Source of the DNA: Terriglobia bacterium
GTDB taxonomy: Bacteria > Acidobacteriota > Terriglobia > JAIQFV01
Reading direction: 5' to 3'
Assembly (NCBI GenBank): GCA_028716525.1
Contig: JAQUPQ010000013.1
Coordinates: 26,385-90,384, forward strand
Length of the DNA stretch: 64,000 bases
Positions 37,362 to 39,861 of the stretch are shown here, piece after piece. A program made the position numbers and the translations under genes. The notes under the pieces were generated by a model. It was not told the origin of the DNA. It saw only the letters and a program-made list of their open reading frames with translations, and did no database searches. Position 1 is the first letter of the stretch. Each line of letters begins with the position of its first letter.

Positions 37362-39143
37362 TCATTGCTTTTTCTTGATGCCTACAATTTCTCCCCGAAA
37401 AGTTTTTACAAAAGACTGGACGACGGGATCCTTTTGAGGATCGGTTTCCACAGAAACGGTTCGCATGGGGGTTTGGCCCTGACTTTCAACCGGCGCCGGC
37501 TCAACCCCGGCGTTCTCCAGCATCGCAAAAGTGACCTGAAAAGGTCTGCCAAATGAATTCTGGCATATTCGTTTCAGAGTTTCAACGTGGCTGCGCGTGT
37601 TCAAGCGGTCGTAAAACACTTCGTTGGCCCTCGTGAAAAATAGATGCACCGTAGAACCCTCCAGTTGGATTCGGGAGGCGCGCTCCAAAAACGACCCCAG
37701 CAACTTGGATTGAGCGCCCACAGCCTCACGAAATGCGCGAATTTCCTGGGATTCATCCCGCTTCACGGGCGACTCGGCAGCTTCGCTGGAGGGCGCGGAT
37801 TTGAAACCCGTGCCGGGTGTCCCGCTCCTCAGGGGTGAGCGGTTCGTTGAGGGCGTTGCCGGCGAAGAAAAGTCCGGCCGACGTGCATTCAGTGGAGGCT
37901 TGAATCGCGGTTCAGTGTTTTTTTTTAGATAAGGAGACTCATTCGGGGCATCGGTGCCCGCCGAGAATCGCGGCGCCGGTGACCCGGCCGGATTAGTATT
38001 AGGAGACGCGGGCGCAGATTTTAGTTCTTCCAGAAATTCTTCGATCGACATCAAACGCGCCGCCTGCACGAGCCGCACCAACCCCAGTTCGAGGTGCAAT
38101 CGTGGCTGCGTGGACCATTTCAGATCGTTGTCGGTGCGCGCCAGGAGGTGGAAAAATCGAACCAGGTCCTCTTCCGAAAAATTAGCGGCGGTCTTGGCAA
38201 GCGCCTCAATTTGATCGGCGGGCAATTCCAGAAGTTCGGAGCGCGTTCCCGCGACGCGCACGATCATGAGATTGCGAAGATGTTGGATGGCCTCGCGGCA
38301 GAAATGTTTCGGATCAAACCCGGCTTGGTGCAGATCATTTACCAGTTGCAGGATGGCGTTGCTGTCGCGCCGGATCAGGGCCTCGCTGAGCCGGTCCAAA
38401 TACTCCTGCGAAACCAGGCCCAACAGTTCGCGGATTTTGGATTCTTCGAGTTGCGTGCCGCAGAAAGAAATGACCTGATCCAGAATCGATTGGGCATCGC
38501 GAATGGAACCCTCCGCCGAATGCACCAGCATGGACAGCCCGGCGGGTGTGATGGTCATGCCTTCCGCCCGGCAGATCTTTTCGAGCGATTCGTAAATCTC
38601 ATGGTAGGAAAGCGTGCGGAACGAGAAATTCTGGCAACGCGACAGAATGGTGGGCTTGAGCTTGTGCCGTTCGGTGGTGGCAAACATAAAAATGATGTGA
38701 TCGGGCGGCTCTTCCAGAGTTTTCAGCAGCGCGTCCCAGGCATCGTCCGTCAGCTGATGGGCTTCATCAATGATATAAATTTTATAGCGGTCGCGGGCCG
38801 GACGATACTTCACGTTTTCGCGAAGCTGTCGAATGTCGTCGATGCCGCGGTTGGAGGCCGCGTCGATCTCGATGACGTCCACGGCATTGCCGTTCTTGAT
38901 TTCACGGCAGGAATCGCATTGGTCGCAGGGTGTGGGGGTCGGACCTTTGGCGCAATTGAGCGCCTTGGCGAAGATTCGCGCACTGGTGGTCTTCCCGACG
39001 CCCCGTACACCGGAGAATAAATAGGCGTGCCCGATACGCTTTTGTTCAATGGCGTTGCGCAGCGTCGTCGTGATTACCGACTGCCCAATGACGTCATCGA
39101 ACTGCTGGGGACGATATTTTCTGGCGATGACTTGGTAAGACAT
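37362..39143 (-). CDS. dnaX: DNA polymerase III subunit gamma/tau
   Basis: MSYQVIARKYRPQQFDDVIGQSVITTTLRNAIEQKRIGHAYLFSGVRGVGKTTSARIFAKALNC...; AAA+ clamp loader. Confidence 0.97.
   Translation of the reverse strand: MSYQVIARKYRPQQFDDVIGQSVITTTLRNAIEQKRIGHAYLFSGVRGVGKTTSARIFAKALNCAKGPTPTPCDQCDSCREIKNGNAVDVIEIDAASNRGIDDIRQLRENVKYRPARDRYKIYIIDEAHQLTDDAWDALLKTLEEPPDHIIFMFATTERHKLKPTILSRCQNFSFRTLSYHEIYESLEKICRAEGMTITPAGLSMLVHSAEGSIRDAQSILDQVISFCGTQLEESKIRELLGLVSQEYLDRLSEALIRRDSNAILQLVNDLHQAGFDPKHFCREAIQHLRNLMIVRVAGTRSELLELPADQIEALAKTAANFSEEDLVRFFHLLARTDNDLKWSTQPRLHLELGLVRLVQAARLMSIEEFLEELKSAPASPNTNPAGSPAPRFSAGTDAPNESPYLKKNTEPRFKPPLNARRPDFSSPATPSTNRSPLRSGTPGTGFKSAPSSEAAESPVKRDESQEIRAFREAVGAQSKLLGSFLERASRIQLEGSTVHLFFTRANEVFYDRLNTRSHVETLKRICQNSFGRPFQVTFAMLENAGVEPAPVESQGQTPMRTVSVETDPQKDPVVQSFVKTFRGEIVGIKKKQ
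37918..37926 (-). other. A9 homopolymer (candidate slippage site) inside dnaX
   Basis: Minus strand CTA AAA AAA AAC ACT GAA; one extra A or a -1 shift gives CAC TGA. Confidence 0.6.
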
Positions 39144-39153
39144 GAGATCTTAA

Positions 39154-39209
39154 AATTCCAAATTCCAAAGTCCAAATAAAATCCAAGTTCCAAAAACCAA
39201 ATTCCAACA
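39154..39209. repeat. 7-bp-periodic repeat array (AATTCCA type), left arm
   Basis: AATTCCA AATTCCA AAGTCCA AATAAAA TCCAAGT TCCAAAA ACCAAAT TCCAACA. Confidence 0.8.
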
Positions 39210-39314
39210 ATCAGAAAGCAAATGGCAGCTTTTGCAAGTTAGAGGCATTTGATCGGCCAGCGGTAACTCGTGAGACTTAGGTAGAGTTCCAAAGTTACCT
39301 ATCGCATTTCTTGT

Positions 39315-39398
39315 TTGGAATTTGAGCTCCTTTGAAATTTGTTTGGATTTTGGAGCTTGGAATTTATTTGGGATTTGGCTCTTGGCATTTGGAATTTG
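39315..39398. repeat. 7-bp-periodic repeat array (TTGGAAT type), right arm, 12 consecutive heptads
   Basis: TTGGAAT TTGAGCT CCTTTGA AATTTGT TTGGATT TTGGAGC TTGGAAT TTATTTG GGATTTG GCTCTTG GCATTTG GAATTTG. Confidence 0.85.
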
Positions 39399-39407
39399 TT
39401 TTATTTA

Positions 39408-39514
39408 ACCAGGTTCCGGGTGATCTGCGGCACATCGCAGTGACCGTTACCGTTGCTGCCGTCAGGCCCTGGCGGGGTTCGCGGGCCGCGATTGCACAGA
39501 GCCCGAAACCTGGA
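39408..39514 (-). ncRNA. ffs: Signal recognition particle RNA (small bacterial 4.5S type)
   Basis: Minus strand carries the SRP helix-8 core GCC-AGG-GCC-UGAC-GGC-AGCA-ACGG (39450-39475), closing stem CCAGGTTTCGGG/CCCGGAACCTGG, and lies directly upstream of dnaX-ybaB-recR as in Bacillus. Confidence 0.85.
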
Positions 39515-39810: not shown

Positions 39811-39861
39811 AATCCAAATTCCAAGGTCCAAAATCCAAACCAATTCCAAAAAGCTCAAATC
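39811..39861. repeat. 7-bp-periodic repeat array (AATCCAA type)
   Basis: AATCCAA ATTCCAA GGTCCAA AATCCAA then a degenerate continuation. Confidence 0.75.

Follow-up and report, generated by a model that had tools for sequence, protein, structure and literature searches.

Transcriptional slippage on a run of nine A's (A9) within dnaX is established in Thermus thermophilus (PMC1088944, PMC5009743). The mechanism considered here is therefore already known, and what the present dnaX adds is probably a separate gain of it. Different routes to a short DnaX have been described. E. coli uses the ribosome, at A_AAA_AAG with a Shine-Dalgarno element and a hairpin, and Caulobacter makes gamma proteolytically (PMC5009743). 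For the two-ORF dnaX genes with an A10 run, grouped in a GeneTack cluster, transcriptional realignment was predicted (PMC3711429). With ribosome, RNA polymerase and protease all serving as routes to it, the value of the shorter DnaX is the subject of a long debate, on which a probable independent gain would bear.

The window (the whole stretch of DNA analysed, 64,000 nucleotides) carries a dnaX gene that resembles that of T. thermophilus in having a sense-strand A9 inside one long open reading frame (PMC1088944, PMC5009743). Also alike are the retention of the clamp-loader part by the predicted short product, the early stops in the shifted frames (in both of them, in this genome) and the presence of tRNA-Lys for AAA and AAG. 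It differs in that, of the two stops, the −1 one alone is both near the tract and conserved across the family, the +1 product reaching 493 aa in one relative, and in that neighbouring families of the class are without the tract; moreover, slippage has been demonstrated in T. thermophilus, whereas here it is predicted. As in E. coli dnaX, the site lies about two thirds of the way through the gene, an A-rich heptamer is in frame, and the short product (predicted, in our case) ends one or two codons past the shift. Unlike in E. coli, with its A6G, its two stimulators and its one tRNA-Lys species, there are here nine A's followed by C, which give the heptamers A_AAA_AAA and A_AAA_AAC, no Shine-Dalgarno-like element or unusually stable hairpin was found, and there are two tRNA-Lys species. 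The two-ORF A10 genes, including those of Chryseobacterium, share with the present gene an A-run located past domain III (PMC3711429), but their zero frame ends at gamma, and tau needs the shift, while here the zero frame encodes tau.

The A9 tract and its predicted products

The 593-aa product is, judging from its Pfam matches, a clear DnaX, with the AAA+ clamp-loader domains and the gamma/tau domain III (DNA_pol3_delta2, 3.6e-46; DNA_pol3_gamma3, 6.9e-25; DNAX_ATPase_lid, 6.2e-12; all above the cut-offs). The features of the locus are collected in Table 1. On the minus strand, the in-frame reading around the tract is CCT TAT CTA AAA AAA AAC ACT GAA. In the −1 frame, or with a tenth A, this becomes AAA CAC TGA and the predicted product has 410 aa, while the loss of one A (A8) leads to the other TGA of Table 1 and to 417 aa. 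The first-pass annotation of this DNA had described the A9 within a 593-aa dnaX, with truncation at about 410 aa upon an added A or a −1 shift, and an end about nine codons later upon the loss of one A; its sequence, coordinates and frames all match ours.

Table 1. Coordinates of the features of dnaX (positions of the window) and of the second gene with an A9 (positions of locus L250).
Feature	Position	Strand	Basis or remark
dnaX (DNA polymerase III gamma/tau), 593-aa tau-like full-length product	37362-39143	−	ORF and Pfam
Clamp-loader core, residues 1-376 (AAA+ domain, lid, domain III)	38016-39143	−	Pfam and AlphaFold
Disordered linker, residues 377-465	37749-38015	−	pLDDT and amino-acid identity
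A9 slippery tract (predicted), codons 406-409, CT-A AAA AAA AA-C	37918-37926	−	Sequence; conserved in L002 and L003
Two overlapping −1 heptamers within the A9, A_AAA_AAA (37926-37920) and A_AAA_AAC (37923-37917)	37917-37926	−	Heptamer scan
−1-frame TGA, end of the predicted 410-aa gamma-like product (...YLKKKH-stop)	37912-37914	−	Frame reading; same distance in L002 and L003
+1-frame TGA, end of the predicted 417-aa product (...LKKTLNRDSSLH-stop)	37889-37891	−	Place not conserved in relatives
C-terminal alpha/beta domain, residues 466-543, long tau-like product only	37515-37748	−	AlphaFold, pLDDT about 95
Acylating acetaldehyde dehydrogenase with A9	L250:10832-12517 (G000:C4); also L221, L222	−	TIGR02518
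BMC-domain shell gene beside the dehydrogenase	L250:12557-12856	−	PF00936, 6e-28

The position of the tract in the protein was considered on an AlphaFold model built with 50 aligned members of the class. The Pfam domain III stops at residue 373, and the pLDDT is mostly above 90 as far as about residue 360, while in the linker it is below 50 at residues 381-385, 390-416, 418-427 and 432-460. The amino-acid identity of residues 374-455 between genera is 0.23-0.27. Codons 406-409 thus fall in mid-linker, between a confident core and a confident C-terminal domain, in agreement with the earlier claim that the site lies after the clamp-loader core. From this position, a short product would keep the whole core and lose the C-terminal domain, and the predicted 410-aa product is in this respect like the gamma of other bacteria. 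A disordered linker would also suit another route to a short DnaX, such as proteolysis, with the A9 being incidental; this would leave unexplained the conservation at the nucleotide level described below, and we consider it very improbable.

In the window, on both strands, the dnaX tract is the sole A9 (2.6 are expected from shuffles), and it is among the nine A9 runs of the whole 4.2-Mb assembly. Taken alone, the A9 in dnaX is a rare but possible event; it is its conservation that exceeds chance.

Conservation in the family and distribution beyond it

The search covered 61 genomes; apart from the present one, the family is represented there by two, which are members of a different genus (67-69% identity). 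The three family genomes thus represent two genera and, since the two that share a genus are 85.6% identical, about two independent lineages. The A9, its phase and the immediate −1-frame TGA are kept in all three. At the tract, the relatives read GTA AAA AAA AAC GAT GAG (L002) and ATA AAA AAA AAC GAT GAA (L003), with an immediate −1 TGA and predicted 409-aa products that end in KKKR. Their +1-frame products end at 493 and 428 aa, respectively, not close to the tract, unlike the 417 aa of the window. The first-pass annotation had named beforehand the loss of the A9 in close relatives as the outcome that would speak against slippage, and both relatives retain it in the same phase. Its description of immediate stops in both shifted frames is correct for this genome, but only the −1 stop is conserved in the relatives; so, of the features that it expected an alignment to preserve, the A run and the −1 stop are kept despite the saturation of synonymous sites, and the +1 stop is not.

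The synonymous sites of dnaX look saturated, close to random between the family genomes, with identities of 0.21-0.41 at the fourfold-degenerate sites over the gene. In the linker, the longest identical nucleotide block is T-A9-C, with 11 nt, and the runner-up has 6 nt. It should be considered whether the A9 arises as a by-product, from the conservation of Lys-Lys-Asn together with chance codon choice, any slippage being noise, as the three residues are indeed conserved in the protein and AAA makes 39-49% of the Lys codons in the three genomes. Several observations argue against this. The codon that precedes AAA AAA is CTA, ATA or GTA, so the residue varies (L/I/V), while its third base is always A and the codon is each time a rare one. 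The lysines common to the three DnaX are AAA throughout at two of the two sites in the tract versus only one of 18 elsewhere, the remaining conserved Lys codons being mixed. The residue that spans the −1 TGA varies (Thr/Asp), and yet the TGA stays. Given the protein and the codon usage of each genome, the chance of xxA AAA AAA is 0.0037, 0.010 and 0.014, and the joint probability over two lineages is about 4e-5, although the pattern may be partly protein-driven, as Lys-Lys-Asn is itself conserved. The by-product explanation seems accordingly quite improbable, and the conservation of the A9 beyond chance in a diverged linker supports the slippage reading. Baranov et al. pointed out that slippage of the truncating kind creates no new coding region, which makes comparative support for it hard to obtain; in the present dnaX, such support comes from the linker, with its saturated synonymous sites.

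Outside the family, a further 56 dnaX genes from this class were scanned, and all lack the A9. The longest runs were an A8 (L006) and an A7 (L134), both in family f6, with −1 stops about 12 and 18 codons on. This distribution indicates a probable origin of the signal within this family, separate from the Thermus case, and it fits the earlier proposal of an independently built slippage signal.

A search of genome contigs with the DnaX protein gave matches in distant phyla (Desulfobacteraceae, Zixibacteria, Chitinophagaceae, Chryseobacterium) and none in close relatives. In Chitinophagaceae-like dnaX, five loci (L073, L075, L076, L079 and L081) agree in reading AAA AAA AAA ATA GCT GAC/T at about codon 376; this A10 is another candidate slippage site, with the zero frame encoding tau and stops in both shifted frames (after NS in one, at once in the other). 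The dnaX genes of Chryseobacterium and of one Flavobacteriaceae (L082-L126 except L092; L080) have a zero-frame stop at about 360 aa, just past an A10-A11 run, a two-ORF arrangement with an A-run already described (PMC3711429). Two further dnaX genes carry such a run past the core and soon meet a stop in either shifted frame: L063 (candidate division GN15), with an A9 at codon 388, and L092 (Owenweeksia), with an A10 at codon 354. Two interrupted genes were discarded as frameshift cases, as neither has a comparable A-run: L133 (G022), of 479 aa with the C-terminal part in another frame, where the N at the break points to a probable assembly gap, and L156 (G047), of 412 aa with the rest in another frame.

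RNA polymerase or ribosome as the proposed slipping agent

Our preferred explanation, to which we assign a probability of roughly 0.72, is that the A9 is a selected slippage site at which RNA polymerase slips, such that dnaX yields two products. In copying T9, the polymerase would add or drop A's. The 593-aa tau-like protein would come from transcripts whose run has 9 or 9+3n A's, and A10 transcripts would meet the immediate −1-frame stop and give the 410-aa gamma-like clamp-loader subunit, without the C-terminal domain; runs of other lengths would lead to truncated forms that exceed it slightly to moderately in size. What we infer is the slippage itself, the RNA polymerase rather than the ribosome as the slipping agent, and the ratio of the products. 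In bacteria, slippage is established for runs of this length, nine A's. Against a two-product reading counts the fact that many bacteria make a single dnaX product.

The same two products could be obtained from homogeneous transcripts by programmed −1 ribosomal frameshifting at A_AAA_AAA or A_AAA_AAC. Both heptamers are in frame, and the −1 stop alone is conserved in the relatives, which is relevant since Antonov et al. treated shifts in one direction as indicative of a ribosomal mechanism (PMC3711429). However, these heptamers are less shift-prone ones, A_AAA_AAG being in E. coli far more shift-prone than either (PMC5009743), and a heptamer requires fewer than nine A's. Stimulators of a ribosomal shift were also looked for. 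By inspection, no Shine-Dalgarno-like element was found upstream of the tract in the three family sequences, and the 81 nt of RNA downstream gave folds no more stable than those of shuffled sequences (z 0.3 to 0.8), in a simple folding that leaves room for a small hairpin or pseudoknot. ARAGORN found two tRNA-Lys genes with CUU anticodon and one with UUU, so that AAG and AAA are both served; T. thermophilus also has both, a feature that a review ties to transcription over the ribosome (PMC5009743). Taken together, the lack of such an element and of an unusually stable hairpin, plus the two kinds of tRNA-Lys, favour slippage of RNA polymerase. Transcriptional slippage is thus ranked first, and a ribosomal shift, although second, seems unlikely as the explanation; the two could operate together.

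A second gene with a shared A9, and repeats upstream of dnaX

The A9 sites of the three family genomes were listed, and those located inside open reading frames were compared. Just two genes, dnaX and an acylating acetaldehyde dehydrogenase (TIGR02518, 1.8e-190) encoded beside a BMC-domain shell gene (Table 1), turned out to carry an A9 in both genera. In the dehydrogenase, all three family genomes have the A9 (GAA AAA AAA AC) within a linker that is variable and rich in proline and serine; a C-terminal segment conserved across the class, about 45 residues long, follows directly. The 18 class orthologs compared from outside the family all lack the run. As to the shifted frames, an extra A leads to KKNF and a stop in G001 and G002, and a lost A to KKR and a stop in G000. 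It is established for microcompartment cargo that encapsulation peptides occur at protein ends after flexible linkers (PMC8217296), and by analogy the C-terminal tail of the dehydrogenase may be one of them. At the nucleotide level, the case is weaker than that of dnaX, because the EKKT motif is conserved and the alignment of the linker is uncertain.

The second A9 gene suggests that slippage may not be confined to dnaX in this lineage. That the family could employ A9 slippage as a general means of producing a protein both with its C-terminal module and without it (DnaX and the acetaldehyde dehydrogenase) is a tentative and rather doubtful proposal. If true, one dehydrogenase gene would give an enzyme with the tail and one lacking it, of which the former may be targeted to the compartment and the latter cytosolic.

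Directly upstream of dnaX (39153-39409), the window contains AT-rich repeats of the TTTGGAATTTGG type, which form a long imperfect inverted repeat with arms of 49-55 nt that are 73-82% complementary and lie about 140 nt apart. With one mismatch, the 12-mer TTTGGAATTTGG has 10 matches in the window versus 0.95 expected, and further copies of this type occur at 39814-39839.
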